Shown: one piece after another, positions 26,077 through 54,239 of the stretch
Position numbering within the stretch: position 1 is the stretch's first letter
Layout: each line of letters begins with the position of its first letter
Translations under genes and position numbers: made by a program
Notes under the pieces: model-generated
Seen by the model: only the letters and a program-made list of their open reading frames with translations
Database searches by the model: none
Told to the model about the DNA's origin: nothing
Assembly (NCBI GenBank): GCA_019166125.1
Contig: JAHTBO010000005.1
Span: 176,175-240,174, forward strand
DNA length: 64,000 nucleotides
Origin: Alcaligenaceae bacterium CGII-47
GTDB lineage: Bacteria > Pseudomonadota > Gammaproteobacteria > Burkholderiales > Burkholderiaceae_B
Direction of reading: 5' to 3'

Positions 26077-26098
26077 ATGACATTAACAGGAGTTATCC

Positions 26099-35648: not shown

Positions 35649-35650
35649 GA

Positions 35651-37636: not shown

Positions 37637-37830
37637 GGGGTTTCCTCCAGAGAATAAAAGACGGAGGAATCCCCCGAAGGGTGAAACCCTCCGGGTGAGA
37701 TAAAGCGGTGCATCCGTCTGCCGGGGTGTGTTCTGGTGAACGTCGGCAGGTGTTCGCGGTATGGATGCGGGGCGAACGGGTGTTGGTCAGCGCGTAGAAC
37801 CGCGCTCGTAGCCTTGATGACCGTGGCTAC
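37637..37830 (-). ncRNA. Structured leader upstream of radC (copy C of the two-hairpin family)
   Basis: Two distal hairpins match the copies before the DUF3577 gene and the 61656 gene. One has stem GTAGCC/GGCTAC (37808-37813 with 37825-37830) and loop ACGGTCATCAA; the other has AGCGCG/CGCGCT around TAGAAC (37789-37806). Near the start codon, CGGAGG (37662-37667) pairs with CCTCCG (37688-37693), followed by the Shine-Dalgarno CTGGAGG. Stem sequences differ from the other copies while pairing is kept, suggesting a conserved RNA. Confidence 0.65.
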
Positions 37831-37967
37831 CTGGGCATGTCGCTGACTTCGTCAGCAGGCATTTTTAGACGGTTCGATGCTGTTCTTGATGGGCGGCACG
37901 ACATCAAAAATCACGATTCTCCGGGCGCGGCGACAGGCTGCACCAGATTTCCCGGTGCGGCTGGTGT

Positions 37968-40847
37968 CTACCGTGTACCGGGGCCATCCTCCACGGCCCC
38001 CGCACCTTTCAAGAAGGCATCCATTGTCATCGGTTCTATCCCGCGCTTACGATCAATCTCCTCAGCCACTTTCAGCGCAGCGTCCAGTTCGCTGATGCCG
38101 TGGGCCTGCATCAGTCTGAAGCGTTCGGCTTTTTCTTCGGGTTCGGTCATGGCCAAGGCCAGGTACAGGCTGGGTGGGACGGCGCGAAACAGGACTTCCA
38201 TGGTTTTAGACAGCACCACGCCTTCGGTGAATTTCCCGGCTTCTTTGCGGGCCGACAGCATGAGTGCTTTTTGCGCGGGCGAGAGTTCGCGGAATCGGGC
38301 GATCTTTTCCACTTCGTCGGGCGGCATGGACAGGCAGATCCACCATTCGATCATGTTGAGCATGGGTTCGGCGGCTTTGGGCAGGTCGTCCAGGTTTTGG
38401 GTGGCCAGCCAGAACCATGCGCCCAGCTTGCGCCACATCTTGGTGATCTTGACGATGTACGGGGCCAGCAGCGGGTTCTTGGTGATGATATGACCCTCAT
38501 CGGTGACGTTGATGATGGGTCGGCCCAGGAATTGGTCGCGCTCGGCGATGTTGTTGACGGTGTTTATCAGCGAGATATAGGCGATGGATAGCTGGGCGTT
38601 GTAGCCTTCGCGGGCGAAGGTCGCCAGGTCAACGATGGTGATGTCGGCTTCCGGCCAAGGGGTGCCGGGCCGGTCGAACATTTCGCCGTCTACGCCTTGG
38701 CAGAACAGTTCCATGGCCTCGGCCATTTCCTGCAGGCGGGTGCGGCGCGATTCGGGCAGGCTGGTGTCTGCGCCACGCGCACGTAAGGCGTCGCGTACAT
38801 CGCGGGTCAAGACGGTGCGTTGGTCGGCAGCGCACCGTTGCGCCGCATCCAAAATACTCTGCCGTATCAAACTGCGGTCGGCGCGGGTCATGCGGGCTTC
38901 TTCGCGGTCTTCGCCGCCGGTAATCATCAGGCGGGCCGTGATTTCCAGTTCACCCAGCACGTCGCGCTGTTCGTCTGCGGCGCTGTCATCTACACCGGCC
39001 ATTACCTCCAGGTCTTCATCCAGCGCATCCACATCCAGGGTCTGCACTTGCCCAGGCTGTTCCACTAGGCGGCGGGCGTCGGCAAACGGTGCCAGGCTGA
39101 CGCCGGAACCAGGGGAAAGCCGCACCCGATGCACGCTCAGGCCCAGGCGTTCGGCAAATTCTCCATACAACCCGAAGCTGTTGCCTGCTTCCACAATGAA
39201 CAGGCGGGGCCGGTAGATGGCCGTGACTTGGTTGAGGATGTTGTTCAGCGTGGCCGATTTACCGGAGCCTGTCGGGCCGAACAGAAACAGGTGGGCGTTC
39301 ATCTGCCGGTCGAGCCGGTTCAGGAGGTCGAAGGTGATGGTGCCGCCGCCCCGGTTGAAGAAGGTGATGCCGGGGTGGCCGGTTCCCAGGCTGCGCCCCC
39401 ACACCGGGGCCAGGTTGGCGGCATGCTGGGCGAACATCAGTTGGGTGTACCACTGGCGGCTGTCTTTGGCCGGGTCGAACACGCATGGCAGCCGGCGCAG
39501 GTAGCTGTTCAGGGGTGCGACTTCGTCTTCTTCGCGCACGGGCTGCAAACCGGCGTTCAGCATGACGTTGGCCAGTTGCAGGCCACGGTGGTCGATGTCC
39601 TCGATGTCGCGCCCGCGCAGGTAGAACACCAGGCTGCCCCGGTACAGTTTGTGGGCGCTGCCGATCAGGGAACGCGCCTGCTGTACATCTTTGCGGGTCT
39701 GTTCGGATGCCAGGGTTTCACCCACGGATTTACGCGCCAGGTGGTTCAGGTGGGCTTCCAATACATCTTGCGGGGTGGCAACCAGGGTCAGGCACAGAAT
39801 GGTGTCTTCCGGCATCTGGTCGAACAAGGTATTGATGGCGTCGCCCTTGCGCGTTTCGCCGGTCAGGTGGCCGGTGGCAGGCGGGCTGCGCAGCCTGTCC
39901 ACGCTCATGACCCGATGCGGCAGGCCGTCAAAGTACCAGCAGCCGTTGCCGGTGTCGGAACGCGGCTGGCCGAAAAACAGGCGCTGGCTGAAGTCGCTGC
40001 CATCGGCCAATGGCAGCGTATCTGGCAGGCCGACCGTATCGCTCAACTCAAGATCAGACTCCGCTTCCATGGCTGAGGGATCAACTGAATCAACAGCACC
40101 ACCCACCGCTCCAGCCAGCCGATAAAACCGTTCCCGGTCTTCCGCGCCATCACCCAGCAAGCTCGGTTGCGGGTTGAACCAGCGTAGCAGCCAGGTGTGT
40201 ATCTGCGCTTCGTTCATGCGCAGCGCCTGCACACCGGCATTGGTCAGCCCGCCGATCAGGCGTTCGCAGGTGATAGCCAGCGTATGTTCGGGCGACTGGC
40301 CACGCCGTGCCGCCTGCCCGCCGGGAACGCGCCGGTAGACCACCATGCGAACGCGCCGGGTCTGGCCGCGCCAGGGCAAACGAGTGACGGCGTTGTCCTG
40401 AAACAGCCCGCCGGGTTTGGCGATGGCCTGCACATGGCGGGCGAAGAAACTCAGGTAGTGTGCGCTGAAAGCGGTGTCGCGGGCGCGGGGCTGGATATAG
40501 CCTTGCAAGGTATCCAGATAATCCGCGAAGCTGGCGTCGTCCTGGGCGTATAGCTGCACCACCCAGGGGTGTTCGTCCAGTTCGTCGAAACTGTCCTGCA
40601 AGGCGTTTTCCAGGGCATCGCGGGTCTGGGTCAACCAGACGGCTTCGCGGCCTTCCGTGCCTACCGGCAGCAGTTCAAAGAACGCCGCCACCGAACGCCC
40701 GTCATCCAGCAGTATGCAGCCGGATTCGGGCAGGTACTCCACCCAAGGCAGCATGTCCGCAAAGGATGGCGCGGCCTGATACAGCGCCTGTTCATCGGCC
40801 AGCGTGGCGGGCCTGGCGGGCCGCTGGGCGGGAGCCGCGCCGCGCAT
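37968..40847 (-). CDS. traC: VirB4/TraC-type conjugative transfer ATPase (TIGR03744-type)
   Basis: A 959-residue cytoplasmic ATPase that powers assembly of the type IV secretion channel. Walker A (FLFGPTGSGKSATLNN) lies near residue 525 and a Walker B-like INVTDEGHII near residue 780. The N-terminal third holds the TraC-specific domain (LPWVEYLPESGCILLDDGRS). The start ATG overlaps the stop of the upstream lipoprotein gene by one base. A Ser/Glu-rich insert around residue 270 is unusual but keeps the frame. Intact. Confidence 0.93.
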   Translation of the reverse strand: MRGAAPAQRPARPATLADEQALYQAAPSFADMLPWVEYLPESGCILLDDGRSVAAFFELLPVGTEGREAVWLTQTRDALENALQDSFDELDEHPWVVQLYAQDDASFADYLDTLQGYIQPRARDTAFSAHYLSFFARHVQAIAKPGGLFQDNAVTRLPWRGQTRRVRMVVYRRVPGGQAARRGQSPEHTLAITCERLIGGLTNAGVQALRMNEAQIHTWLLRWFNPQPSLLGDGAEDRERFYRLAGAVGGAVDSVDPSAMEAESDLELSDTVGLPDTLPLADGSDFSQRLFFGQPRSDTGNGCWYFDGLPHRVMSVDRLRSPPATGHLTGETRKGDAINTLFDQMPEDTILCLTLVATPQDVLEAHLNHLARKSVGETLASEQTRKDVQQARSLIGSAHKLYRGSLVFYLRGRDIEDIDHRGLQLANVMLNAGLQPVREEDEVAPLNSYLRRLPCVFDPAKDSRQWYTQLMFAQHAANLAPVWGRSLGTGHPGITFFNRGGGTITFDLLNRLDRQMNAHLFLFGPTGSGKSATLNNILNQVTAIYRPRLFIVEAGNSFGLYGEFAERLGLSVHRVRLSPGSGVSLAPFADARRLVEQPGQVQTLDVDALDEDLEVMAGVDDSAADEQRDVLGELEITARLMITGGEDREEARMTRADRSLIRQSILDAAQRCAADQRTVLTRDVRDALRARGADTSLPESRRTRLQEMAEAMELFCQGVDGEMFDRPGTPWPEADITIVDLATFAREGYNAQLSIAYISLINTVNNIAERDQFLGRPIINVTDEGHIITKNPLLAPYIVKITKMWRKLGAWFWLATQNLDDLPKAAEPMLNMIEWWICLSMPPDEVEKIARFRELSPAQKALMLSARKEAGKFTEGVVLSKTMEVLFRAVPPSLYLALAMTEPEEKAERFRLMQAHGISELDAALKVAEEIDRKRGIEPMTMDAFLKGAGAVEDGPGTR

Positions 40848-41326
40848 CAGTACGCCTCCAGCCGTTCACCCGGCATGGCGTACTGCACCTTGGAGTGCAA
40901 AGGAAAGACAGTGCTGTAACCCGGCACCGGCACTTGTTCCGTCCCGGCCAGATGGGGAAAGACGTACATCACAATGTCCGGGTTGGGCAGGCGGTGAAAT
41001 TGCTGCAGGATCTCGTTGTGGCTGGTGCGGGCGTAGCTGGCGGCATCCAGGGCAGCGGCCTGGGCTTCGTGTTCCGTCAGGGGGCGGCGCAAGGTCAGGC
41101 GGGCATCCAGCAATTGCCGGTTGGCGACACTGGCCGTTGTTGCACCACTGCCCGGCACCGCACCGCCCATGCCGCCATCGGCCTGCTGCCAGATGTCCAT
41201 CATGGTCTGGCTGCCGTGGGTCAGCATGTCTTCCGAGCTGGTGGCGCAGCCTGCCAACGTGGTCAGCACGGCCAGCCCGACGCAGGCTCTGGCCCAGCGA
41301 CGTTCTTCAATCCAGTTCCATTGCAT
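40847..41326 (-). CDS. Conjugative transfer region lipoprotein, TIGR03751 family
   Basis: A 159-residue protein with a lipoprotein signal (VGLAVLTTLAGC, lipobox LAGC). The mature part has TSSEDMLTHGSQTMMDIWQQ and the C-terminal VFPHLAGTEQVPVPGYSTVF then PLHSKVQYAMPGE, the family signature. It is predicted to sit in the outer membrane as part of the core channel, in the place of TraV or VirB7. It overlaps TIGR03752 by 20 bases. Confidence 0.9.
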   Translation of the reverse strand: MQWNWIEERRWARACVGLAVLTTLAGCATSSEDMLTHGSQTMMDIWQQADGGMGGAVPGSGATTASVANRQLLDARLTLRRPLTEHEAQAAALDAASYARTSHNEILQQFHRLPNPDIVMYVFPHLAGTEQVPVPGYSTVFPLHSKVQYAMPGERLEAY

Positions 41327-42713
41327 CGTGTCCTCCGATTTCGTGATTCACCCGCCGCCCATCGGGCGCGTAGTCGATGGCAACCGCCTGTTCCAGATGA
41401 ATGGCGACTTGGGCGCCGGGCTGCACATACACTGCTGCGAATGCCTGGCCGTACAGGCGGTTTACCCACTGCGACATTTCCTGAACGCCACCGGCCAGCA
41501 CCCGGCCCATGGCTTCGTTGCCGGAAATCCCTACGGAACCCATCGAACCATCCCGGTTGTTGATGTAGGACACATTGCCGCCTTCGGATGGAATCAGCGC
41601 CGCCGCGCCTGCACCGGCTGCGGTAATCAGCGCCTGAGTCCCCAGGTACTGCTGGGCGTTGCTGCGCCGTTCGCCGCCCACGCAGGGAATGCCGTAGGGG
41701 TCGCTGATCCAGCCCAGGCCGTCCTGCCCGGATGCCTGCCCCTGTCGTTGGCGCTGGCCGTCTTCCGGTACGGTGCGGATGGTGCCGTCCTGAAACACAA
41801 AGGTCAGGCTGCGAATCTGCCCGCGCACGCAAGACAGCGTCCAGTCGCCGGTCGCCGTGCCGCTGACCACGGCACCGGCCACACCGGGCAGGTCGATGCC
41901 GTTGGCTGTCAGGTTGTCGGGGCCGATCAGCACTTTGAAGGGGTATGGGTCGTTGACCGTGCCGTCGATAGGCACCCGCCCGATCAGGGCCGTCATGGAA
42001 ATGGAACCCATCAGGGTGGCGTTGGCCGGTAAGGTGTAGACCGGCGTAGCGGCTGCGGCCGTACTGAAACTGGCCGGGGCAGAAACATCAAATTCTCCGG
42101 TTTGCAACGGTTGCTGCGCTGGCCCGAAACGATTAGGAAAACCCATGGCCGTGCCAGCCTGCCGCCCATCGGCGCTGGGCGCGTCGCCTGGTTCCACCCA
42201 CTGCAGGGTGTCACGTTCAGCGGCCAGCATCTCGTCATCGCGCAGCCCCAGGCCCACTGGCAGTTCGGTGGCGTCAGCCGCTTGCGACAAGGTTTCCATC
42301 TGGCGCTGCACCTGCTGAAGCAGTTCCTGAGACTGCCGGCGTTCCTGTTCCAGCCGCTGCTGTTCGGCCTTCAGCTTGCGCTGTTCGCCGTCCACGGCGT
42401 TACGAATCCGCTGCTCGATCTGGTTGTCGCGCTGGCGCAGACGTTCGTTTTCAGTTTTATGGACTTTGTTGTCGGCCACCGCGCCTTGCAGTTCGGTGCG
42501 CAGTTGCTTGACCTGGCCGATGAGCGTGGCAACTGTATCGTGGGGGCTGTCGCCCTCGATGCCCAGCGCCCGCATTTCCTCGGGCGTCAGGCGCGGGGTA
42601 CGGTCGCCCGTGGCCGCGCCGCCGTCGCCCCCGGAAAACACCCGTATCATCACCCACAGCACCAGCAGTGCTACGGGAATCATCAACCACTTCAACAGGC
42701 CGCTACTTTTCAT
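41307..42713 (-). CDS. ICE core channel protein, TIGR03752 (PFL_4705) family, TraB/VirB10-like
   Basis: A 468-residue protein with an N-terminal membrane anchor (LLKWLMIPVALLVLWVMIRV), then a long coiled coil at about residues 75-145 (RLRQRDNQIEQRIRNAVDGE and following), and a C-terminal VirB10-like beta domain (PVYTLPANATLMGSISMTAL). It should span from inner to outer membrane. The ATG at 42713 is used; the longer frame adds 28 residues from the preceding gene. Confidence 0.9.
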   Translation of the reverse strand: MKSSGLLKWLMIPVALLVLWVMIRVFSGGDGGAATGDRTPRLTPEEMRALGIEGDSPHDTVATLIGQVKQLRTELQGAVADNKVHKTENERLRQRDNQIEQRIRNAVDGEQRKLKAEQQRLEQERRQSQELLQQVQRQMETLSQAADATELPVGLGLRDDEMLAAERDTLQWVEPGDAPSADGRQAGTAMGFPNRFGPAQQPLQTGEFDVSAPASFSTAAAATPVYTLPANATLMGSISMTALIGRVPIDGTVNDPYPFKVLIGPDNLTANGIDLPGVAGAVVSGTATGDWTLSCVRGQIRSLTFVFQDGTIRTVPEDGQRQRQGQASGQDGLGWISDPYGIPCVGGERRSNAQQYLGTQALITAAGAGAAALIPSEGGNVSYINNRDGSMGSVGISGNEAMGRVLAGGVQEMSQWVNRLYGQAFAAVYVQPGAQVAIHLEQAVAIDYAPDGRRVNHEIGGHDAMELD

Positions 42714-43617
42714 GGTTGACCTCAAAGGTGATGGCAGGCGTAAACGCAGGCGCGACAACAGGCTGTACAGCGGCGGGCCGCGCTGTCCGCGCATCAAAGC
42801 GGCTAACGGCAGGCGACAGAAAGCGCGACAGCGGCCCGCGCGTCACTAGATACAAGGTGGTGGTGTCCGTCGCCAAGCCTGTCGGCCCCAGCGTTGCATG
42901 CTGAAAACTCGCCGCCACAAAATCCCCCTGCAGGTCGCGGGCATCCAGCATCAGGCGGTCTTTGCCGGTATTGCGCAGGCGAACGGCAGTGACCCAGGTG
43001 CCGTCCAGCCGCCATGCGCCCAGCGCCTGATAGGCCAGCGGCAAGTTGGGCAACAAGGTTTTCAAAGGCAGTTTGCGCGGCAGCGTCATGGGCATCAGCC
43101 CTGGAATGGCATCCACGGTGCGTAGCGGCGCATACAGGCTTTGCGCCGCATGGCGCGTCAGCACCACGGCAACCGGCGTATGCCGTGGCCGGGGCGGCGC
43201 GGGCGCAACAGCGGCTGGGCCAGCCGCCGCAGCTTGCGAAGCATCCACAATCCGCACCGGCTCCAGCGGCGGCGCATCCGCTTCAGCCGCTTCAGCCGCT
43301 TCAGCGGCGATGTCCAGCAAAATCAACGAACCCGTTTCTACATCCTGCAATTGCAAACGGCTGGGCGCAATGGCTTCGCTGGCTTTCAGATAAATGGCCC
43401 CGCCCGCGCTTTGCACCCGTAGCGTATCTTGCACCCTGGCCGGTACGCCCACGCGCACATTGCGGTCAATAAACACCACCCGTTCCTGACCCACCACCAA
43501 AGGCACGGCCAGCGGTAGCCGGTTCCAATGCAGAATTTCCACGGCGTGTACGGCGGGTACACAACACAGCATGGCAATACCCGCCCATAGCGCCTTGATG
43601 CAATAAAAGCTCTTCAT
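42703..43617 (-). CDS. ICE protein, TIGR03749 (PFL_4704) family, TraK/VirB9-like
   Basis: A 304-residue secreted protein with a signal peptide (ALWAGIAMLCCVPAVHAVEI). The mature N-terminal beta domain (LHWNRLPLAVPLVVGQERVV, FIDRNVRVGVPARVQDTLRV) and an Ala/Pro-rich linker are family features, and the C-terminal domain ends in the TIGR03749 pattern. It is probably the TraK/VirB9 equivalent in the outer-membrane core complex. It overlaps its neighbours by 4 and 11 bases. Confidence 0.88.
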   Translation of the reverse strand: MKSFYCIKALWAGIAMLCCVPAVHAVEILHWNRLPLAVPLVVGQERVVFIDRNVRVGVPARVQDTLRVQSAGGAIYLKASEAIAPSRLQLQDVETGSLILLDIAAEAAEAAEADAPPLEPVRIVDASQAAAAGPAAVAPAPPRPRHTPVAVVLTRHAAQSLYAPLRTVDAIPGLMPMTLPRKLPLKTLLPNLPLAYQALGAWRLDGTWVTAVRLRNTGKDRLMLDARDLQGDFVAASFQHATLGPTGLATDTTTLYLVTRGPLSRFLSPAVSRFDARTARPAAVQPVVAPAFTPAITFEVNHEK

Positions 43618-44306
43618 CGTGCAGCTCCCTGTAAAGCCCCCAGGCCGCCACCCAGATCAGCGGCGGCACTCTCATCCACCGGCACGGTGATACGTTCCGG
43701 CGCCTGGCTGTAGCAGTCCAGCACCAGGCCAAAGGGGTTGCGTTCCGGGTCGTGATCCTGGCGGGCCACCTTGATGCGGTAGCGCACCAGAGCGCGTTTA
43801 ACCTGTTCCGAGCCGTGGTATTCATCGGCGCTCACATCCAGCGTCACAATCCAGTCGCGGTCAGACAGCGCCTGCACCCGGCTAGCCGGGTCGTCGCCAT
43901 AGCCGCGACCGGGGATTTCATACAGGCCGCGCACCCGCTCACGCAGTTCGCCCGTGCTGCGGCGGTACTCGTAATCCTGTCGCAGCGACACCCGGCAGGC
44001 AGGCGTCAAGTAGGCCGACAACGCATGCAGGTTGCGGGCATAGTCATGTTCGCCATTGGTCGGCCAGCGGTTCAACTGCTGAAAAATGTAGAAGGTGAAG
44101 GCGTAGACCGATTCCGGCGGGACTTCCCACCACTTGCGCACGCTGCCGGAACGCAAGTCGGGCGGCACATGGATGGTGAGGTCGCGGGGCGACTGCCACC
44201 AGCCCACGCCCAGCAATAAGGCCAGAACCAGTAACCCGGCCAGGCCCAGCCGTAAGGTGCGGATATGCGCTTGCAGGTGAGTGATTTCATTTTTGAAGCG
44301 GCTCAT
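43614..44306 (-). CDS. ICE protein, TIGR03746 (PFL_4703) family, TraE/VirB5-8-like
   Basis: A 230-residue bitopic membrane protein. One membrane segment lies near the N-terminus (LGLAGLLVLALLLGVGWWQS) and the periplasmic domain contains VYAFTFYIFQQLNRWPTNGE and YLTPACRVSLRQDYEYRRS. The ATG at 44306 is preferred, overlapping the upstream stop by four bases. It is the presumed scaffold protein of the inner-membrane complex. Confidence 0.9.
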   Translation of the reverse strand: MSRFKNEITHLQAHIRTLRLGLAGLLVLALLLGVGWWQSPRDLTIHVPPDLRSGSVRKWWEVPPESVYAFTFYIFQQLNRWPTNGEHDYARNLHALSAYLTPACRVSLRQDYEYRRSTGELRERVRGLYEIPGRGYGDDPASRVQALSDRDWIVTLDVSADEYHGSEQVKRALVRYRIKVARQDHDPERNPFGLVLDCYSQAPERITVPVDESAAADLGGGLGALQGAAR

Positions 44307-44701
44307 GAGCGGCTCCGGCGAACAGACCACCAACCGCTACGCATCACCAGCGCTTGCCCGCCTACCCAGGGTGCCAGCGCGGGCAATTGGCGGCTGATCC
44401 ACCATTGAACTTGCCTGTACAACCAGGTTTCCGGGCGGTTGCGCTTCTGGCGGCGCATGACGGCCCCGCCCACAAACACCCCCAGCGCAATGCCCACTAC
44501 AACCAGGGTTGGCACCAGGGCGATGGTAGATAGCAGCAGTGCCAAAGGGATGCCCACCAGCAAGCCAGCAGCGGCAGACAAGCCAGTGCAAATCCATAGC
44601 TCATCAGCCGTCAGCCCCCGCACCACCACCGGCTGGCGGTTCAGCCGATGCGGAAGGAAGGCCACGGTGCCGTCAGAACGTGATTCGTAGGGAAGCGCCA
44701 T
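44303..44701 (-). CDS. Conjugative transfer region protein, TIGR03750 family, TraL-like
   Basis: A 132-residue protein with two adjacent membrane helices (ELWICTGLSAAAGLLVGIPL, LALLLSTIALVPTLVVVGIA). Charged ends include FLPHRLNRQPVVVRGLTADE and RQKRNRPETWLYRQVQWWIS. The pattern and position match TIGR03750, the TraL/VirB3 counterpart that links the ATPase to the channel. Confidence 0.9.
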   Translation of the reverse strand: MALPYESRSDGTVAFLPHRLNRQPVVVRGLTADELWICTGLSAAAGLLVGIPLALLLSTIALVPTLVVVGIALGVFVGGAVMRRQKRNRPETWLYRQVQWWISRQLPALAPWVGGQALVMRSGWWSVRRSRS

Positions 44702-44712
44702 AGCCGCCTCGC

Positions 44713-45084
44713 TTATAGAATCTCAGTGGCCTGGGTCAGCAGCCAGATGCCGATCACCAGCAGTACTGCGCCCACAGCGACCGTCAGCCCGAACTGGCCC
44801 CAGGTCTTGCGGCCAGTATGGATTTCCGCATAAGTACCGTAGGCGTGGTAGCAGACCCCAATGAACATGGCCGCGACCACCAGCAGCGCTACCAGCATCA
44901 CCATGTCATAGCCGTAGTTCTGTATCGTCTGAATAATGCCGCTGCCCGTGCCACGCGAAGGGTTTTCCATGGTGGGCAGACCCTGAGCCAGAGCCATGCC
45001 GGGCAGCGCTATCAGGCTCAATGCCAGCACAGGCCGGGCGGGACGAATGGTATGAAGTGAACGAATAGAAAGCTGAGGCAGCAT
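44713..45084 (-). CDS. ICE membrane protein, TIGR03745 (PFL_4702) family, pilin/VirB2-like
   Basis: A 123-residue protein with a signal sequence (LALSLIALPGMALAQ) and two membrane helices in the mature part (GYDMVMLVALLVVAAMFIGV, LTVAVGAVLLVIGIWLLTQA). The arrangement fits a VirB2/TraA-type pilin or related inner-membrane subunit. It lies between TIGR03758 and TIGR03750, as in other ICEs of this type. Confidence 0.88.
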   Translation of the reverse strand: MLPQLSIRSLHTIRPARPVLALSLIALPGMALAQGLPTMENPSRGTGSGIIQTIQNYGYDMVMLVALLVVAAMFIGVCYHAYGTYAEIHTGRKTWGQFGLTVAVGAVLLVIGIWLLTQATEIL

Positions 45085-45112
45085 GCCAGTCTCCTTGGGG
45101 TGAAACCTGCGA

Positions 45113-45346
45113 TCAGGACAAAAGGAAAAAGCTCAGCACCACGTACATGACGGCCACGCGCACCAGCACGCCCATGAACTGACGCGATGACAGGCGGTTT
45201 TCTGCCCAGCCGCTATAAGCCGTGCGAATTGCCCACACGCCCCATAGCAGCACCAGAGCGAACACCAGCCCCACCAAGGCGGTAGCCAGCACAGACGGCG
45301 TAAAGCCGCCATTGGCCTGGAAGGCGGTCAGTTGGGCGGCATTCAT
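45113..45346 (-). CDS. ICE membrane protein, TIGR03758 (PFL_4701) family
   Basis: A 77-residue protein with two membrane helices (VLATALVGLVFALVLLWGVW, QFMGVLVRVAVMYVVLSFF) and the family start NAAQLTAFQANGGF. It is the first gene of the second transfer block downstream of the flagellin cargo. The RAQPRD-family gene that usually precedes it is not present between here and TIGR03747. Confidence 0.88.
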   Translation of the reverse strand: MNAAQLTAFQANGGFTPSVLATALVGLVFALVLLWGVWAIRTAYSGWAENRLSSRQFMGVLVRVAVMYVVLSFFLLS

Positions 45347-45731: not shown

Positions 45732-46481
45732 TTGGCATTGAGTCTACCGGAATTACTTAATCAATATTGGGATGTAATTGCCAAGAATCCTGTTTTCTTT
45801 ATTACTACGGCCTTCGTTTTTTCTGGAATTGGATTTTATTTTGCAAAACTGGTTTATGGGGCCATCGCTAACATCGCGAGGGAGCGTCTGGAGGCAGCTC
45901 GCGATGATGCAGCTCGTCTAGAGAGGGCCAAGAGAGAAGAGTCGGAGACCGTTTCGAAGCTGCGAGAAGAGCTAGAAAAGCGCTCGCAAGGGGGTAGCCA
46001 TTCGCGTCAGGTTCCAATCGAGCAGCGTAAGTCAGCAGCGGAAAAGCCGAACTCTATAGGTCTCAAAGTTGCTGATGGAGGTTCGGCAAAAGCAAGCGTT
46101 GTTGATTCATTTTTTCTATCCATTCCTCACCGTAGCTTAGAAGACGCTTTGGATGAAGCCCGAAAGGTACATAAACTTGTGTTTGCTGTAATATATGATG
46201 AGTCTCATCCGAGACAGAGCAAGCTTACATATTCTCTTGGTTACTTTATGGAGTACCACACTACTAAGAAGCTCGTAGATGAGTACTTTATTCCGGCTGT
46301 CGTGAAAGCCTCAAATGAGAAAGCTGCGGAATTAGTACCGAGCGATGATCCACTGGAGAACTGCTTGTGGGTGGTAATGACTTCGGCAGGCGAGGTGCTT
46401 AGGCGGGAAGGTGTCTATGCAAACCCTGACGAAGGGTTGAAAAGGGTGAGAGCTGTGATAGCAAGTGCAGGGAAAATATAA
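45732..46481 (+). CDS. Unrecognised membrane-anchored coiled-coil protein with thioredoxin-like domain
   Basis: A 249-residue protein of unknown role, on the strand opposite to its neighbours. Residues about 18-40 form one membrane helix (NPVFFITTAFVFSGIGFYFA), about 45-85 a charged coiled coil (RERLEAARDDAARLERAKRE and following), then a linker. Residues about 130-245 form an alpha/beta domain whose pattern (HKLVFAVIYDESH, CLWVVMTSAGEVLRREGVY) suggests a thioredoxin-like fold without an evident CxxC. The start may be TTG at 45732 or TTG at 45738, the latter nearer GGAG. The AT-rich cargo setting suggests a defence or exclusion role, unproven. Confidence 0.7.
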   Translation: MALSLPELLNQYWDVIAKNPVFFITTAFVFSGIGFYFAKLVYGAIANIARERLEAARDDAARLERAKREESETVSKLREELEKRSQGGSHSRQVPIEQRKSAAEKPNSIGLKVADGGSAKASVVDSFFLSIPHRSLEDALDEARKVHKLVFAVIYDESHPRQSKLTYSLGYFMEYHTTKKLVDEYFIPAVVKASNEKAAELVPSDDPLENCLWVVMTSAGEVLRREGVYANPDEGLKRVRAVIASAGKI

Positions 46482-46725
46482 ATGCATAACAAAGTCCTCC
46501 AGACGGACAAAAGTATAGTGTCATGCTTTTTGCAGAGGGCGCAAAAGCCACGCCACTATGCTTTTTCCGCTGAGGAACGACGTTATATTTCGATGTGTCT
46601 TTTCGGGAAAACTACTGGTCTGACCGCTTTGGGTCGAAACCAGCCCTTGATAATAAGAAACAGCCCGCTTATGACTCAAGTCCTAAGGGGCTGTTTCCGA
46701 CAGCTTCTACAGCCGCAGCACTCCC

Positions 46726-48375
46726 CTAAACCAACAACCCCTGCCGCTTCAACAAATCCAGCAGCTTCCCAACGATCTTATCCGCCGTAGCATCCAGATT
46801 CCGCTGGCCCTTGAGCGACTTCCCATCGGTAGACACGACATCACCCCGGCTGAGGGCATCGCGCAGCATGGTCGCCAGCTGCTTACGGCTGCGCTGGCCG
46901 TCGATGTTTTTCAACACTAGGGCTTCGGCTTCGTGCAGGCGGATATTGATTGAGTCGTGCCACAGGTTGAACGTGCCTACGCCGAACTCAAGGTCGGCCC
47001 GGCGTTCGCGGATATATGCGAAACCCGGAATCAATGCGGGTGCATCGTTAACGACCGTATCAGCAGCATCATACGGCGCAGGTTCCAGCGTGTAGCGCAG
47101 GCTGTTCAGGCGGAACAAGGTCTGCAAGGTGTCCAGCAGTTTCTTGCGGGCGGCGGCATCGTCTTCCGCTCCGGGCAGTTCCGGGCGCACACGTTCCAAC
47201 AGGGTGTCAAAACTCAGGCTGGCAGGCCAGACTGCCGTCAAGGCGCGAACCACGGCCAGAACGGCTGCATCGCTGGTGTGCAAGGGGCGGTTTTTATAGC
47301 TGCGGAACGAAATCCGGCCCTTGGGGGCATTCGCTTCGGGTTCGACTTCCGTGAACTGACCGGCCCAGCGCAGGTCGGCCAGGCGTTCCATATCAGGTAC
47401 CACCAATACGTCATCGGCCCGCGACTGATGCACAACGAGGCTCTTGCGGAAGTTGCGGCCTACGGCAAAATCCAGATACTGCTGCCGCATTTCGCGGGGT
47501 TGGCCCAGGGCCACCAGGCTGTGGTTTAACTGCACGTTCTGGCCATAAGTGGCCGACATTTCTGCGTGCGGTTCAGCATCACCCACCTGGGTCAGCGCGT
47601 ACTGGTCGGCCAGGTTCACAAATTCCAGCAGGTAGCAGGGGTTGTTGAAAGTTTCGAGGTATTCGTGAGCAATGTAGTAGTCGGATTGCTTGCGCAGCTG
47701 TGCGACGGCTGCACGCAAGGAAGGTGCCAGCGGGTTGCTGGACGCAATGCCTTCCGACAGCAGATTCAGCATGGCCTTGGCACGGGCCAGCTTTTTGTCG
47801 TCGGTTTCAGCGCCGTGGCTGTGCAGCAGCATGGCGTCGCGCACAATGTCGCCCGCCTTCCAGCCGGGGTAGGTGTTGTAGCTGATATAGCCAATACCGT
47901 TGGGCGACAGGTTGTCGCGCAGAATGCGCATCATGGCTTCGCGCACTTCGGGCGGCACCCAGCTGAACACGCCATGCGCAATGATGTAATCGAACTGCCC
48001 AAATTCTGGCGTGATGTCCGTCAGGCTCATGGCATGCAGATGCAGGTTCTGCACCCCCAGCGCCTGCACCACTTCCTGGCCCTGGTTGACTTGCACGGAA
48101 GACAGGTCTACCCCCACGACATGAGCTTGCGGGTAAGCCAGCGCAAAGGGCAGCAGGTTGCCGCCCCCGGCGCAGCCCAACTCCAGCACGCGGGCGTTTT
48201 CCAGCGGCACGGATTCCAGGCCGTACAAATGGGCTGCAGCGCGCAGATGGCCCGGCGACGAAAACGGGAAGGCGTTGGAGGTGTAGACCCGCTTGTCGTA
48301 GGCTTCGGTGATTTCCTGATTCGCCCGCTGGGTGGCGTCGTCAAGGTCCAGAGCGGCGGTGTTTTCAGTGTTCAA
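46726..48375 (-). CDS. Class I methyltransferase with regulatory domain (MT2), ICE-borne paralogue of MT1
   Basis: A 549-residue paralogue of MT1 (24302-25912) with the same architecture and long identical stretches. It has motif I VLELGCAGGGNLLPF, GVDLSSVQV, FDYIIAHGVFSWVPPEVREA, ISYNTYPGWKAGDIVRDAML and NVQLNHSLVALGQPREMRQQ. It also starts with TTG (MNTENT), after a GCAGGAGC ribosome site. It is the last of three leftward genes: flagellin, a 63-residue gene and this one. The inferred role is modification (probably lysine methylation) of the element's flagellin; the family resembles protein-lysine methyltransferases with a C-terminal winged-helix domain. Confidence 0.82.
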   Translation of the reverse strand: MNTENTAALDLDDATQRANQEITEAYDKRVYTSNAFPFSSPGHLRAAAHLYGLESVPLENARVLELGCAGGGNLLPFALAYPQAHVVGVDLSSVQVNQGQEVVQALGVQNLHLHAMSLTDITPEFGQFDYIIAHGVFSWVPPEVREAMMRILRDNLSPNGIGYISYNTYPGWKAGDIVRDAMLLHSHGAETDDKKLARAKAMLNLLSEGIASSNPLAPSLRAAVAQLRKQSDYYIAHEYLETFNNPCYLLEFVNLADQYALTQVGDAEPHAEMSATYGQNVQLNHSLVALGQPREMRQQYLDFAVGRNFRKSLVVHQSRADDVLVVPDMERLADLRWAGQFTEVEPEANAPKGRISFRSYKNRPLHTSDAAVLAVVRALTAVWPASLSFDTLLERVRPELPGAEDDAAARKKLLDTLQTLFRLNSLRYTLEPAPYDAADTVVNDAPALIPGFAYIRERRADLEFGVGTFNLWHDSINIRLHEAEALVLKNIDGQRSRKQLATMLRDALSRGDVVSTDGKSLKGQRNLDATADKIVGKLLDLLKRQGLLV

Positions 48376-48531
48376 CTGTGGCTCCTGCGGGCGTAAAAAA
48401 TATCAATGGCGAATACCGCCGAACCTATAGAGTAACGGCTTTCTACACGATCAAAAAAGGAAATAGAAAGCTTTTTCCTGGGCAGACTAGGCAAGATTAA
48501 ATAAAGACATTCCAGGGGAGGAATCAAGCCA

Positions 48532-48723
48532 TCACGTCTCGATTGCACGAGCGTGGGCAAGGTGCATTTCAGTGATTCGCTGTTCCAGATCATGCAAGGC
48601 CACATAGTCATCTTTTAGAATGGCAGCGAAGCCGGTGGCTTCAAATTTCTGAATAGTGCTGGCAACCTGCTGCTTCAGTACATCGAGTTCGGCCATGACA
48701 AGACGGTGGTCGTTTTCATTCAT
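48532..48723 (-). CDS. Small helical protein between flagellin and methyltransferase genes
   Basis: A 63-residue acidic, helical protein (MNENDHRLVMAELDVLKQQV, then ASTIQKFEATGFAAILKDDY). ATG at 48723 is chosen, being the start of the helix-rich part. It lies between the flagellin terminator and MT2, all on the minus strand, and is not seen at the chromosomal MT1 locus. Size and charge would suit a chaperone or adaptor for flagellin or the methyltransferase; this is a guess. Confidence 0.6.
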   Translation of the reverse strand: MNENDHRLVMAELDVLKQQVASTIQKFEATGFAAILKDDYVALHDLEQRITEMHLAHARAIET

Positions 48724-48753
48724 CGTTATTCCCCACGAATGCTCCAGATACTG

Positions 48754-48789
48754 AAAACCGCCCACCCCGTTGTCAGGATGGGCGGTTTG
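48754..48789 (-). terminator. Intrinsic terminator of the ICE flagellin gene
   Basis: AAACCGCCCA and TGGGCGGTTT pair over ten bases, and the minus strand continues with TTTTC. It lies 57 bases after the flagellin stop and just before the small downstream gene, so most transcripts should end here. Confidence 0.8.
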
Positions 48790-48845
48790 TCTTGCCAGAC
48801 CTGCTTCCCGTAAAGACTACCGGGAAGCTTTGACGAGTCTGCGAA

Positions 48846-51056
48846 TTAACGCAGCAGCGACAGCACAGTCTGCGGAACCTGGTTGGCTTGTGCCAGAACC
48901 GAGGTGCCGGCCTGTTGCAGGATCTGCGCGCGGGTCATGTTGGAGACTTCGACGGCGTAGTCGGCGTCTTCAATACGCGAGCGGGCTGCGGACAGGTTGT
49001 TAACAGTGTTGCTCAGGTTGGCGATCGTGGACTGGAAGCGGTTTTGTACAGCACCCAGCTCGGAACGCAGGCTGTCTACTTCTTGCAGTGCAGCGTCCAA
49101 AGCCTTCAGCGGGTCAACACTACGCGTGTGCAGAACGGCATCGTCGCCAGTTGCTTTGATGAGTGCGCGGTTACCTGTGGCGGCGTCGGCATCACCCAAA
49201 GTGGCTTTGGTGTACACAGCGTCGTTACCTGTGCCGGTTTGTACGACATAGGCCAGGTTGCCGCTGGAGTCTTCGTAGCTAAGCAATTGCTCGCCCGCTG
49301 CCAAGCCTGTGATATTACCGGTTACGGTGATATCGCCGGTGGTCGCTTTGGTACTGCTGATGATTGCGGTATCCAGTTTGGCTGTGCTGGAGTCCCAAGA
49401 AAAGGCACCCGTGGAGTCAGCCGTACCGGCATAGTAATTACCATTGCTGGCTTTTACCGCATAGCCGCCGCTACCATCTGTTAACGCATAGACATCATCA
49501 GCAGCTGCTGTAGGCAGGTTCGTGGTGTCGAGGTTGAACAAGTCGGTTTGAGGGTTGAAAACACCTGTTTCAGTGAAGGTCAACTGGTTGCCAACGGTGC
49601 CATCAATCTTGGCCCCAACGTTGTTCACACTAACCTGTGTCGTGGCGGACGAGGCGTCAATATTGAACTTGACGGTGTAGTTGTTGATATCAGTTGCGTC
49701 GCCAGCAGTATAGGTAAACGTGGCTTCAACGCTGTAGTATTTGCCATCATGCCCTTCAACAGCAAACAACTGGCTGCCGCCGTTGCTAGAACCATCCGGG
49801 ACAAATCCAGCAGTATCGTTACGGCTGAACAAGCCTTCGCTGTAGTTGATGTTAACAGCGGTAAATTGGTTAGCACCAATTACGTCAGAAGAGCCTGCAG
49901 TAGGGGTTGTGGCATCAACATTAGCAGCATTTAGCGTAATTGCGGCTACTTTACCGTCATTACCAATAGTGATTTCGTAAACGCCGTTTTCGGGAGCATT
50001 ACCACTGTTCTCAATGGTGACGTAATATTGTCCAGTGTTGTTGTCACGAACGATATCACCGAAGGTGGCAGCGCCATCCAAGTTGCTTTTGTCAATGGCA
50101 CTCGTATCTACGCTTACACCGCCCGTCACATTAAACCAGGCGCCGGCACCACCGGTTGCGCTGATCCAATCGGTATTAGCTGCATTGGTTGTGTCAAAAT
50201 TGGTGAATTCAGGTGTGGCTGTAGCTTCGCCCTTGATATTGGCTGCGGCAACTACTGTGCCGGAATCAGAAGAGTCCCAGACCCACTTACTCGTTACGGG
50301 GTTTTGTTCGACTTTGAAGTAAGTATCGGTGCCATTGACGTCGGCTTTGACGGCATATTCGCCAGCCGTTGTAGTGGCGTAAACCTTACCGTCCGACTCG
50401 ATCCCTGAACCCGCAGGCAGGTTGGTTGGGTCTACCGTATTGGCACCTGCTGACAGGGCCACACCTTTGATGTTGCCTTCGCCGCCGCCACCAGTGGTCT
50501 TAACAGCGCTCAAGTCGTTGGTGGTTGCACCATTAACGTTGAAGGTACCCAGTTTGAGCGTGTCAGCGTTGATTTGACGCAGGTTAACGCTAATTGTCTG
50601 GTCGTCGTGTGCACCGACTTGCACGGTCAGGTTGTTTTTCTGAGCCAGTACATGTACGCCGTTGAACTGAGTCTGTGTCGAGACACGGTCAATTTCATCC
50701 AGACGCTGTTGGATTTCAGCCTGGATCGAATCCAGGTCGGAACCCGAGTTGGAACCGTTGGCGGCCTGCACCGACAGTTCACGAATACGCTGCAGGTTGT
50801 TGTTGATTTCGTTCAGCGCGCCTTCGGTAGTCTGCGCGATGGAGATACCGTCGTTGGCGTTACGAGCAGCCTGGGTCAGACCCTTGATGTTGGCGGTGAA
50901 GCGGTTGGCGATAGCCTGACCAGCAGCGTCGTCTTTGGCGCTGTTGATACGCAGACCGGAGGACAGGCGCTCGATGGCGGTGCCCAGGGCGTTCTGCGAT
51001 TTGACCAGGTTGTTCTGAGAAACCAGAGCCAAATAATTCGTGTTAATTACGGACAT
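48846..51056 (-). CDS. fliC: Flagellin FliC carried by the ICE
   Basis: The N-terminal D0/D1 domains (residues 1-170: MSVINTNYLALVSQNNLVKS, LSSGLRINSAKDDAAGQAIA, LQRIRELSVQAANGSNSGSD) and the C-terminal ones (residues 650-736: NLSAARSRIEDADYAVEVSN, QILQQAGTSVLAQANQVPQT) are complete. The 480-residue middle is a large outward-facing domain, making 736 residues in all against roughly 400-500 in many relatives. It contains an internal repeat (about residues 224-266 and 521-558: VYA...YAVKA...WDSS). It has its own sigma-28 promoter and terminator. It is the only complete flagellin in the window and should depend on host FliA, FliS and FliD. Confidence 0.96.
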   Translation of the reverse strand: MSVINTNYLALVSQNNLVKSQNALGTAIERLSSGLRINSAKDDAAGQAIANRFTANIKGLTQAARNANDGISIAQTTEGALNEINNNLQRIRELSVQAANGSNSGSDLDSIQAEIQQRLDEIDRVSTQTQFNGVHVLAQKNNLTVQVGAHDDQTISVNLRQINADTLKLGTFNVNGATTNDLSAVKTTGGGGEGNIKGVALSAGANTVDPTNLPAGSGIESDGKVYATTTAGEYAVKADVNGTDTYFKVEQNPVTSKWVWDSSDSGTVVAAANIKGEATATPEFTNFDTTNAANTDWISATGGAGAWFNVTGGVSVDTSAIDKSNLDGAATFGDIVRDNNTGQYYVTIENSGNAPENGVYEITIGNDGKVAAITLNAANVDATTPTAGSSDVIGANQFTAVNINYSEGLFSRNDTAGFVPDGSSNGGSQLFAVEGHDGKYYSVEATFTYTAGDATDINNYTVKFNIDASSATTQVSVNNVGAKIDGTVGNQLTFTETGVFNPQTDLFNLDTTNLPTAAADDVYALTDGSGGYAVKASNGNYYAGTADSTGAFSWDSSTAKLDTAIISSTKATTGDITVTGNITGLAAGEQLLSYEDSSGNLAYVVQTGTGNDAVYTKATLGDADAATGNRALIKATGDDAVLHTRSVDPLKALDAALQEVDSLRSELGAVQNRFQSTIANLSNTVNNLSAARSRIEDADYAVEVSNMTRAQILQQAGTSVLAQANQVPQTVLSLLR

Positions 51057-51186
51057 TTTGAAATGCTCCTGTAGGGAAATGGCAGCGGCGTACTACTGCC
51101 GGTTAACCAGGAAAGCCCGTTTCCGGGTGGAATCCTGGCCCTTCACCGGGGTGTTGGGCAGGCCCTGTATTTCCTGTACATGCTGG

Positions 51187-51213
51187 TTTACGGCAAGGTG
51201 TATGGGAGGTTTA
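51187..51213 (-). promoter_or_regulatory. Sigma-28 promoter of the ICE flagellin gene
   Basis: On the minus strand, TAAA (51213-51210), 15 bases, then GCCGTAAA (51194-51187) match the sigma-28 consensus at eleven of twelve bases, 130 bases before the start codon. It differs in spacer and leader sequence from the host flagellin promoter at 25942. Confidence 0.88.
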
Positions 51214-51336
51214 GGGCTTGCTACTAAAAATCTCTTGCTTGTTACGTTTGGCCGACGCTGCTGGCCTTCTCATGCATCTACGGCAGTGGGCGGTGATTCT
51301 TTAGGTTTCTCGGGCAGGATTTTCTTCGAGAAATCG

Positions 51337-52149
51337 TTACAGCGATTTCTTGAAACGGCTGGCAGTCAGGCTCAAGGCAATGCCCTGCAGAACGGCGGCA
51401 GGCAGCATGAATGCAAGGGTGGGCAGGCTGACAGGCACTGCCAGCCATAGCAGCCAGGGCCATACAAGCAGCGGCCCCAGGCTGGCTTTGGCGCGGTGGT
51501 AGATAAAGCCGGATTCCTGCCCCGCCCCAAAGCGGCGCTGGTCGCGGCGCACCAGGCCGTCTACCAGGCCCAGCATGGCGGTTGCCAGGAACAGCGGTAG
51601 GCAGAGGGCCAGCGCCAGCAGGCGTAAGGCGTAGGTTCTGGCGGTGTGGGCAGCGGCCAGCCTGGCGTTGCTGAGCCAGTGGCGAGCTTGGTTCAGGTGC
51701 TGCTTGAAGCCTTGCTGTGTATATGAGCGTGCCGATGCTGTGTGTATATGGGCCGGGATTTTGTGTATATCGACCAGTTTTTTGTGTGTTTGAGCCTCTT
51801 TTGCTGCCGTGATCTGCTGCGTGTTCAGCCGTGTGTGCAGACCGCTGCGCTGGAGCAGCCAGTATTGCAGGCTGTCGTCCAGGCGCTGGGCGGTGTGGGC
51901 CGGTTCAGGGATCAGCAGGCTGCGTGGGAATGTAGTTTGGATACGGGCCAGTTCCTGCTGGGCCAGGGTGTCGGCATGACGCCAGCCCTGTTCCGGCCAG
52001 AACAGCATCATGCCTACGCCCTGCAGGGTCAGGGCCAGTAGCAATGCGCCGCATAGCAGGCCGAACAGGTGCAGGGGCGACAGCAGCAAACGGGCTATCA
52101 GCCCAGGGCGGCGTGGCGGTGGTGCCTGGGTGGTGGTTTGGTTGCTCAT
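51337..52149 (-). CDS. ICE membrane protein, TIGR03747 (PFL_4697) family
   Basis: A 270-residue integral membrane protein. The first membrane helix is LLLSPLHLFGLLCGALLLAL; after a periplasmic helical part come further helices (LRLLALALCLPLFLATAMLG and two near the C-terminus). The motif YHRAKASLGPLLVWPWLLWL fits TIGR03747. It partners the coupling protein TraD in related ICEs. The ATG at 52149 overlaps the TraD stop by four bases. The flagellin cargo begins directly after its stop. Confidence 0.88.
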   Translation of the reverse strand: MSNQTTTQAPPPRRPGLIARLLLSPLHLFGLLCGALLLALTLQGVGMMLFWPEQGWRHADTLAQQELARIQTTFPRSLLIPEPAHTAQRLDDSLQYWLLQRSGLHTRLNTQQITAAKEAQTHKKLVDIHKIPAHIHTASARSYTQQGFKQHLNQARHWLSNARLAAAHTARTYALRLLALALCLPLFLATAMLGLVDGLVRRDQRRFGAGQESGFIYHRAKASLGPLLVWPWLLWLAVPVSLPTLAFMLPAAVLQGIALSLTASRFKKSL

Positions 52150-54239
52150 GGGGTGTCGGGCTGCCTGCTGGTGTCCTGCCACCAGTCAGGTTCAGTGGTG
52201 TGATTCAGGCGCATGTCTTTTGCCATGGCCTGCAGGTTGGCGGGCATGGCTTCATCCGGGTCGGGTTCCGGCAACGGCATGCGTATCTTCCACAGCTTGC
52301 CGCCTTCCACCAGGGCAAAGCACTGGCCTTTGGGCAGGCTGACAATATGCGCCGGTTCTATCATGGGGACACTGGTGGCGGTGACCCGTTCCTGGGTGGT
52401 GGAACTGAAATCGGTGCCGCTGTCCAGGCTGGAACTGTCGGCAGCGGTGCTGATCTGGCTGCTGGCGTAGACCTCGACCTTTGGTAGTTGCTGGGTCAGC
52501 AGTTCTGCCGTGGCGGTTTCGCGCACGCGCAGCATGAACAGGTTGTTGAAGTTGCCCACCACTTGCCCCGCCTTGGCGCGGTTGCCGATACGGGCTTCGA
52601 TGTCGGACAGGGTTTGTGTGTAGGCCGTAACCTGTATGCCCGCACCGCCGCCCTTGTTCACCAGGGGGATGAACTCATCGCCCATCAGTTCGTTGAATTC
52701 GTCGGCATGCAGGTTGATGGGAACTTTGGCGGCGGGGTCGGCGCTAGGCGGCAGGCCGTCGTCGATGCCGAATTTGTAAATATGCCCGGCGACCGATACC
52801 AGGTCGCTGAACATGGCATTGCCCACGGCGCTGGCGACTTCGGTGTCGGAAAGCGCATCCAGCCCTACGTAAACCACGGCGCGTTGGCGCACGATCTGCA
52901 TCCAGTCGAAGATGGGGCGCGGGTCGTTCAGTTCGCTGTAGCTGGGTGCCAGTAGTTGGGCGATCTTGCCGGTGGTCAGTTTTTCCAGCAGCGGCAGCAG
53001 GCTGGCGACAATCTTGTCAAAGTAGCTGCGGTCGTAGCGCACGGCGCTACGCAGGCCGTCCAGCACCGGGTCATACACACGCACTTGCGATAGATACTGT
53101 TCAATCGCCACCACCCGTTTTTCCCGGCCTGTCATGTGGCGGGGAATGGTTTTGTCGTTCAGCTTGGCTTCCAGTTGCACGATGATGTCCCAGGCTTTGG
53201 GCTGGGTGCGGGCCAGGAAATGGGCGGCGTATTCCATGAATAGCGCGTCGATATTGACGACATGGCGCAGAATCAACTGGTAATCGGGCCGTTGGCCGAG
53301 TTCCACCAGGGCGCGGGCGATGATGTTCACAAAGCGCCAGGCAAATTCCCTGAAGGCAGCGCTATTGCCTTCGCCCGATAGCTGCCCGGCCACGCGGGTC
53401 GCCACTTCGGAAATGCGCCCAAAGCGGCCCACGGCGTTATAGCGGGCTGAAATATCGGGCCAGCCCAGGTGGAAGACATAGAAGGCGTTTTCCCGCCCGG
53501 CACGGCGGGCTTCTACTGCCATACGCTTGAGCAGGTCGGCGTCACCCTTGGGGTCAAAGACGATCACCACTTCATGTTCGCCCTGGGCATTGGTGCGGCG
53601 TATGTCCTGGGTAATCAGCAGTTCGGCCAGGCGGGTTTTGCCTACGCGGGTGGTTCCCAGCACCAGGGTGTGGCCGACACGTTCGCCCAAGGGCAGCGTG
53701 GCATCGGTTTCGTCGGGTTCGATGCCGTGCAGGCGCGGCAGCCCACCTACGGGTGGCAGCGGCCGGGCTGGGTTCAGGGGGGAATCCCAGCGGGTCAACC
53801 GGGCCAAAGGTTGCACGGGGCGCGGCGCAAATTCCAGGCGGGCTTCCAGGCGTCTGGCCCACTGGTACAGCGGTGTGGGGTCTACATAGGCGCGAAACTC
53901 GGGGCGGTAGGTTTGCATCAGCCGATGGGTATGGCGCTGATCCCACTGAAAGCCCTTGCCCAAGAACAGGTGCTGGCGGCTGACGGGTATGCGGCGACTG
54001 GTCATGCTGTAGTGCGGCAAGCGCCGGATATTGCGGCGGTAACGCAGTACCCGCCAGGCCTGGCGCATTCTTTGCGCGGCCAGCAGCATCAGTGCCAGGC
54101 CACAGGCCAACCCGGCGGCGGGTGTCAGCGCCAGCGTCCAGGGTGCTGCCAGACATAGCGTAGCGGTGGCGGCGCATAGTGCCACGGTGTATAGCTCCAC
54201 CGCTGGGCGCAGCAGGACTTCAATCGGCTGTTGGGACAT
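52146..54239 (-). CDS. traD: Conjugative coupling factor TraD (SXT/TOL subfamily)
   Basis: A 697-residue type IV coupling ATPase that brings the relaxase-DNA complex to the channel. N-terminal membrane segments (residues about 10-55) are followed by Walker A VLGTTRVGKTRLAELL near residue 195, VIVFDPKGDADLLKRMAVEA, and Walker B NLHADEFNELMG near residue 503. It is complete and of family length. It starts 10 bases after the transglycosylase gene and is coupled to TIGR03747. Confidence 0.95.
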   Translation of the reverse strand: MSQQPIEVLLRPAVELYTVALCAATATLCLAAPWTLALTPAAGLACGLALMLLAAQRMRQAWRVLRYRRNIRRLPHYSMTSRRIPVSRQHLFLGKGFQWDQRHTHRLMQTYRPEFRAYVDPTPLYQWARRLEARLEFAPRPVQPLARLTRWDSPLNPARPLPPVGGLPRLHGIEPDETDATLPLGERVGHTLVLGTTRVGKTRLAELLITQDIRRTNAQGEHEVVIVFDPKGDADLLKRMAVEARRAGRENAFYVFHLGWPDISARYNAVGRFGRISEVATRVAGQLSGEGNSAAFREFAWRFVNIIARALVELGQRPDYQLILRHVVNIDALFMEYAAHFLARTQPKAWDIIVQLEAKLNDKTIPRHMTGREKRVVAIEQYLSQVRVYDPVLDGLRSAVRYDRSYFDKIVASLLPLLEKLTTGKIAQLLAPSYSELNDPRPIFDWMQIVRQRAVVYVGLDALSDTEVASAVGNAMFSDLVSVAGHIYKFGIDDGLPPSADPAAKVPINLHADEFNELMGDEFIPLVNKGGGAGIQVTAYTQTLSDIEARIGNRAKAGQVVGNFNNLFMLRVRETATAELLTQQLPKVEVYASSQISTAADSSSLDSGTDFSSTTQERVTATSVPMIEPAHIVSLPKGQCFALVEGGKLWKIRMPLPEPDPDEAMPANLQAMAKDMRLNHTTEPDWWQDTSRQPDTP

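Follow-up and report, generated by a model that had tools for sequence, protein, structure and literature searches.

The window that we analyzed is a stretch of 64,000 nucleotides from Alcaligenaceae bacterium CGII-47, which corresponds to bases 176175-240174 of contig C35 (241,193 bases) in a draft genome, G000, of 3.45 Mb and 41 contigs. The left part of the window carries a flagellar cluster consisting of flgJKL, fliR to fliF, fliT, fliS, fliD, flaG and fliA (named by eye). The cluster is followed by hemerythrin-like, rfbC and hicBA genes, also named by eye, and then by a methyltransferase gene, MT1, and the start of a fliC gene that ends after seven codons. The features around this point are as follows.

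24302..25912, plus strand: MT1 methyltransferase, adjoining the native fliC stub and 61% identical to a second methyltransferase, MT2 (below)
25942..25968, plus strand: sigma-28-like promoter of native fliC, TAAACTTC-N11-TCCGTTAA, read by eye
26099..26128, plus strand: native fliC stub, ATG and codons 2-7 (MSVINTN), then AGA CAT TGA, read from the sequence
26100..26124, plus strand: palindromic junction TGTCTGTTA-TCAACAC-TAACAGACA, a perfect 9-7-9 palindrome in the sequence and the predicted attL core
26125..26225, plus strand: left end of the element, by homology to contig C423 of genome G254

The stub reads ATG TCT GTT ATC AAC ACT AAC and then AGA CAT TGA, with the flagellin codons at 26099-26119. 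Aligning the DNA of 25.8-28.8 kb with that of relatives identified 25959-26119 as a fliC upstream region and start: positions 25959-26115 are 84% identical over 157 bp to the corresponding region of G007, a genome of the same genus, and shorter matches were found at the fliC starts of 15 other loci. The stub was visible only by this comparison of the 5' region and not by tblastn. When the flagellins of 46 relatives were searched against the window for a larger fliC remnant, only weak matches were obtained outside a second, complete fliC described below (best E value 0.014 at 13755-14033; FlgL at 3571 on). Likewise, the remainder of native fliC was not found in the assembly by a PF00669 profile and protein searches of the draft genome. 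For the other side of the insertion, the DNA that follows fliC in G005 was compared with G000; it gave two short matches, on contigs C13 and C11, that were uninformative. An earlier reading of these letters without database searches (the sequence-only reading) had claimed a disrupted host gene, and we identified it as fliC, of which the upstream region and seven codons remain before the cut at 26120. We conclude that the left end of the element sits inside the host fliC, after seven codons. In G030, a TIGR03756-like fragment (L073:12153-12281) has MT1 on one side and the hemerythrin-fliA genes on the other, close to a fragmented fliC; it is a possible remnant of another integrative and conjugative element (ICE) at this locus.

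A 9-7-9 palindrome is the shape of a tyrosine recombinase core. With up to three mismatches allowed, only G000 and G254 among 268 family genomes had the palindrome, and an order-wide search for the junction pattern returned one of 399 genomes, G000 itself. A match to the pattern in a viral contig was rejected as a chance match within a phage-like gene, and a search for the element's left end in plasmids found none. G254 belongs to another genus and is 81% complete in about 580 contigs. It contains a near-identical junction and the same left end behind a promoter of a different type: positions 26088-26225 (start codon, core and the next 101 bp) share 83% identity with contig C423, and 26141-26225 alone share 85%. 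Because G254 has this near-identical junction, an assembly error at the junction is unlikely. The junction contig of G254 also carries a piece of TraD that is 98.9% identical over residues 255-437. Just inside the left end in the window is a RES toxin-like gene (26520-27326), with an Xre-like gene, read by eye, before it; for the RES toxin-like region, G033 has 90% identical DNA (595 bp) at a distance of about 5 kb from a fliC. Near the left end in G254 there is an Abi-like gene (L254:9913-10812, by eye).

From 26.1 kb on, the element is an ICE of the TOL/PFGI-1 type. Its transfer genes, and the genes they enclose, are listed below.

28719..30950, minus strand: MobH / TIGR03760 relaxase, 358.1 and 277.2 bits, both above cut-off
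31443..44701, minus strand: ICE transfer genes including TIGR03755, 03756, TraC/03744, 03751, 03752, 03749, 03746 and 03750, profile matches
44713..45346, minus strand: TIGR03745 and TIGR03758, the far edge of the cargo slot, profile match
45113..45346, minus strand: TIGR03758 gene, 98.8 bits against a cut-off of 42.7
45732..46481, plus strand: 249-aa protein whose match to the PADLOC model PD-T4-6 covers the C-terminal part of the model (430-556 of 564), E value 2.3e-26
46620..51245, minus strand: flagellin cassette, bounded by where homology to G254 contigs C573 and C423 stops
46726..48375, minus strand: MT2, PKMT-like protein methyltransferase (Methyltransf_25, MethyTransf_Reg, PKMT_2nd)
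48532..48723, minus strand: 63-aa gene, without a Pfam match; a protein in G254 is 89% identical
about 48752..48788, minus strand: terminator-like GC-rich hairpin followed by T, after fliC, by eye with approximate ends
48846..51056, minus strand: cargo fliC, 736 aa, matched by NF005294 (FliC/FljB subfamily) with 504.6 bits against a cut-off of 387
51187..51213, minus strand: sigma-28-like promoter of cargo fliC, TAAACCTC-N11-GCCGTAAA, by eye, with the usual spacing
51337..52182, minus strand: TIGR03747 gene, the near edge of the slot, 210.4 bits against a cut-off of 138.5
52146..54239, minus strand: TraD coupling protein (TIGR03754), profile match

The gene order is relaxase, TIGR03755 through 03750, 03745, 03758, cargo, 03747, TraD and 03759, and both the TIGR037xx type IV secretion set and the TraD expected of a TOL/PFGI-1-type ICE are present. 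A replication protein of the STY4534 family was matched in the element. The proteins scanned did not include a match to TIGR03757, and a search with the TIGR03764 ParB model was without a match, with the control equally silent. Neither the right junction of the ICE nor its integrase was identified in the assembly, in which we found the left junction only. Entry by a recombinase is inferred from one end. Contig C35 ends at 241193, about 1 kb beyond the window, within tandem tyrosine recombinases that we take to be RIT-like; they occur at the contig end (L074:3200-5194) and on two small contigs (L255, L256), and they are possibly the cause of the assembly break inside the ICE.

The slot between TIGR03747 and TIGR03758 measures 5,990 bp here and holds fliC, the 63-aa gene and MT2, together with the 249-aa protein on the opposite strand. 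The sequence-only reading had placed a flagellin with its promoter and terminator, a 63-residue gene and a methyltransferase between these two transfer genes, and we found all of them in place. It had also held that TIGR03747 and TIGR03758 are normally close neighbors, a claim that was not borne out: the gap ranged from 428 to 14,393 bp in 85 measured slots, falling below 900 bp in 26 and above 900 bp in 59, with 28 distinct kinds. These slots came from 37 of 80 named ICE loci, which were the best 80 of 458 found, and 48 of 52 family loci; at least four contigs, judged by their length, are common to both sets, and the family set left out one near-duplicate (G080:C47:15815) and eight below-cut-off places other than the one in G254. 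The 47 loci with TIGR03747 but without TIGR03758 within reach were excluded from the gap counts and included in the search for flagellin. A match to the TIGR03747 model in G254 (E value 5.5e-4) was rejected as spurious.

Of the 61 slot ORFs with 180 aa or more, 57 were scanned against protein families; the ORFs were chosen mechanically, and some are perhaps not genes. BrxA, DISARM, CBASS-type, AbiH, HipA and type III restriction proteins were among the matches listed (25 families per scan). The survey of ICE slots for flagellin proposed by the sequence-only reading gave no case: none of 133 loci (2.47 Mb; one of them, L251, is not an ICE) matched fliC, the methyltransferase or the 63-aa gene, and the same search detected all three in control loci. 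The position of the slot corresponds to a cargo and defense hotspot described for such ICEs. We conclude that the slot is a variable cargo hotspot in which defense genes are often present and flagellin is unusual. In addition, the window contains four copies of ATATACACA (0.10 expected), one at 26191 at the ICE left end and three at 51716-51770 within TIGR03747. The TIGR03747 model matches this gene in two pieces, with the three copies between or near the pieces, and the motif was found in none of 132 surveyed TIGR03747 loci.

The survey bears on whether the landing in fliC and the cargo are related at all. Two unrelated events, the gain of the cargo and the insertion into fliC, could have been combined and the combination kept only because motility was restored, an account that we regard as possible but doubtful. 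The slot does accept many kinds of cargo, including metabolic-looking genes in one locus (L242, assigned by eye), which would favor it. On the other hand, because flagellin was in none of the 133 fetched loci, a chance coincidence of cargo and site is unlikely, and the junction and a matching cassette are both present in G254, albeit on separate contigs.

In the cargo fliC, the N- and C-terminal flagellin domains lie in one frame. Cargo fliC and flgL were the two matches of the PF00669 profile in the draft genome, and a flagellin protein search of G000 at E values up to 10 added one weak match of 25% identity. Cargo fliC is the sole complete flagellin gene found in the draft genome; for this reason, the filament would be built from the cargo flagellin if the cell is motile. 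A Pfam scan of the cassette recognized no repressor-like gene.

MT2 aligned to PDB entries 5dnk (residues 25-318, E value 9.9e-69) and 5doo (residues 25-499, E value 6.6e-61), the protein lysine methyltransferases PKMT1 and PKMT2 of Rickettsia. The substrate of the Rickettsia enzymes is the surface protein OmpB. MT2 resembles them in having a PKMT_2nd domain and differs in that its type is linked to flagellin genes: flagellin sequence lay within about 8 kb of relatives of the methyltransferase in 16 of 17 fetched loci. From this chromosomal linkage and the homology to PKMT, MT2 most likely methylates lysines of the cargo flagellin.

The cassette was compared with its counterpart in G254, where the junction and the fliC-s63-MT2 cassette lie on separate contigs. 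MT2 is 98% identical, the 63-aa protein 89%, the promoter 88.5% and the DNA around MT2 92%, and the middle of the flagellin, about 49116-50658, is unlike that of G254 within an otherwise homologous cassette. An AAA-ATPase-like frame (L182 from 4067 on, by eye) adjoins the cassette in G254. One could propose that a rearrangement trapped the native chromosomal locus inside the ICE as the fliC-MT2 block, a possibility that the sequence-only reading had itself raised. Such methyltransferases and fliC are chromosomal neighbors in relatives, and the native locus is only 25 kb away. However, the stub retains a host-genus upstream region (84% to G007) beside MT1, the cargo has a promoter and an MT2 of the G254 type, and the homology to G254 stops near the cassette edges. 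Further, the upstream regions of the stub and of cargo fliC gave no match to each other at E values up to 0.1, indicating that cargo fliC is not the displaced native gene. The promoter and the type of MT2 contradict a native-locus rearrangement, which we consider highly improbable and rejected.

The integrase of G254, perhaps shortened at its start, precedes the promoter at the junction. We identified eight full-length homologs in its family at about 50% identity or more, counting G254's own, and a fragment in G013. Six of the eight (the G254 stub, G220, G251, G166, G001 and G008) have fliC sequence no more than 2 kb from the integrase, and none was found in the fetched regions of G102 and G136. 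Flagellin starts near members of this family are cut at the same core. The integrase was not found in viral contigs and plasmids at the limits used. Two divergent flagellin genes flank a tyrosine recombinase gene in G001 (L070:12566-16009), G008 (L077:7895-11151) and G166 (L301:8506-12120). The flagellin on the 3' side of the recombinase has a promoter and ATG, and the one on the 5' side starts at the core without an ATG. This arrangement is a candidate invertible switch for flagellin phase variation; the opposite orientation was not seen within one genus. It favors the view that tyrosine recombinases use this core.

These loci bring in two further explanations of the junction. It could be the by-product of a resident phase-variation switch with a lost partner gene rather than of ICE integration, as G001, G008 and G166 have a recombinase between divergent flagellins, one without ATG, with the break at the same codons. 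We consider this improbable, given that the DNA past the junction is homologous to the G254 left end and continues into ICE genes, and that no such recombinase was found in G000 at 1e-60, the nearest among its fetched integrase loci being 33% identical. Alternatively, the right end of the ICE could re-supply the integrase, a sigma-28 promoter and the first fliC codons, as SXT in prfC re-supplies what it cuts; the native flagellin would then stay on with the cargo as a second one, and G000 would have lost the right end later. In G254, the element's left end is joined directly to the integrase, a sigma-28-like promoter and ATGTCTGTTATCAACACCAAC, in an attP-like arrangement, and in G001, G008 and G166 the 3' side of the integrase has a promoter and start codon before a flagellin gene. 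The absence from G000 of a second flagellin, as well as of such an integrase, speaks against this account, and the G254 integrase could be a resident gene beside a fliC that the ICE entered. We give the re-supplying right end a minor but real share of the probability.

Cargo fliC begins with ATGTCCGTAATTAACACGAATTATTTGGCT, which encodes the usual N-terminal peptide in other codons. The mean synonymous frequency of cargo codons 2-7 was 0.26, compared with 0.59 (sd 0.09) in 36 non-redundant relatives, none of which was lower; near-identical flagellins were removed for this count, and the block was chosen post hoc, after the codons had been seen by eye. Later blocks, covering codons 11-55, were ordinary, with 17, 32, 14, 22 and 28 of the 36 relatives lower. 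The cargo core has three mismatches to the palindrome core, and seven of the 36 other flagellins have three or more. The flagellin of the G254 cassette is not recoded, and the G115 flagellin has several of the same unusual codons. Recoding of the cargo core as self-immunity against the element's own recombinase is a reasonable but unproven reading.

Taken together, we favor an ICE-borne flagellin swap, somewhat more probable than its negation, in which native fliC was split and the filament protein and its modifying enzyme were replaced in one transfer. A TOL/PFGI-1-type ICE would have entered the host fliC within codons 2-7 by recombination at the tyrosine-recombinase-like core, through a putative enzyme, splitting the gene. 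The foreign cassette in the cargo hotspot of the ICE has a full flagellin, its own promoter and hairpin, the 63-aa gene and MT2. Flagellin expressed from the cassette's sigma-28-like promoter would replace the filament protein, MT2 would modify it, and synonymous differences over the core may lower recombination of the ICE into its own cargo copy. The net effect would be an exchange of filament protein and modifying enzyme in a single transfer event. Against a swap, most relatives have fliC beside MT1 in the orientation opposite to the stub: the two genes are neighbors but convergent in relatives such as G169 and G199, and they point in the same direction, as in this window, in G251. In addition, the assembly lacks the remainder of native fliC as well as the right junction and the integrase of the ICE. 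The replacement system suggested by the sequence-only reading is upheld in part: the left end lies in the host fliC, a full flagellin and a methyltransferase of the fliC-linked type are carried, and this flagellin is the sole one found. The ICE may itself have removed the native gene body, and the replacement may be an evolved system or an accident that selection has kept.

Flagellin genes on mobile DNA have precedents. E. coli reportedly has the flk flagellin islet and other non-fliC flagellin loci. In flk strains the resident fliC is whole and is repressed by a partner gene. As in that system, the flagellin made by the cell would change through a gene borne on a mobile or excisable segment; the differences are that fliC is cut at the element end here, that the carrier is a conjugative ICE and that the Pfam scan recognized no repressor-like gene. 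Among plasmid records, 81 carried flagellin at an E value of 1e-30, and none covered 80% of the query in one place. In the Salmonella Hin switch, inversion by a resident recombinase decides which flagellar gene is expressed, and the C. difficile RecV flagellar switch also works by inversion through a resident recombinase. The likeness to Hin and to RecV is that recombination decides flagellar gene expression, whereas what is seen here is a large ICE that sits in the flagellin gene. We found no report in the open-access literature of an ICE that is inserted in fliC and carries flagellin.

The company in the slot may hint at what such a cargo does. The flagellar filament is a phage receptor and an immune target. 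GI-Hotspot 8 is the corresponding slot of the same kind of ICE, with traD on one side and defense genes usual there; the window resembles it in traD on one side and in its PD-T4-6-like piece and differs in a cargo of flagellin and methyltransferase. The RAQPRD gene of GI-Hotspot 8 was not found with one query (from L222), the best match in the window having an E value of 0.54 and lying outside the slot. In P. syringae ICEs, the cargo region between TIGR03747 and TIGR03758 carries type III effectors (PMC8895235), host-interaction cargo at the position that a filament protein has here.

Given what else occupies the slot, escape from flagellum-dependent phages fits as a candidate benefit, and because the flagellin sits in the element's defense hotspot, a phage defense that changes the receptor is possible. 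More tentatively, we propose an ICE family that attaches at the conserved 5' end of fliC and brings its own flagellin and flagellin methyltransferase, with the site synonymously recoded so that the cargo would be immune to the element's own recombinase, and with a filament swap that might serve as receptor-changing phage defense. The finding directly links horizontal transfer with which protein forms the flagellar filament. Should the swap be a programme, a single step would let an ICE take away a surface structure and put another in its place, and selection for self-protection would be cleanly marked by the recoded core. The locus offers a testable case of a surface change stored beside phage-defense genes.
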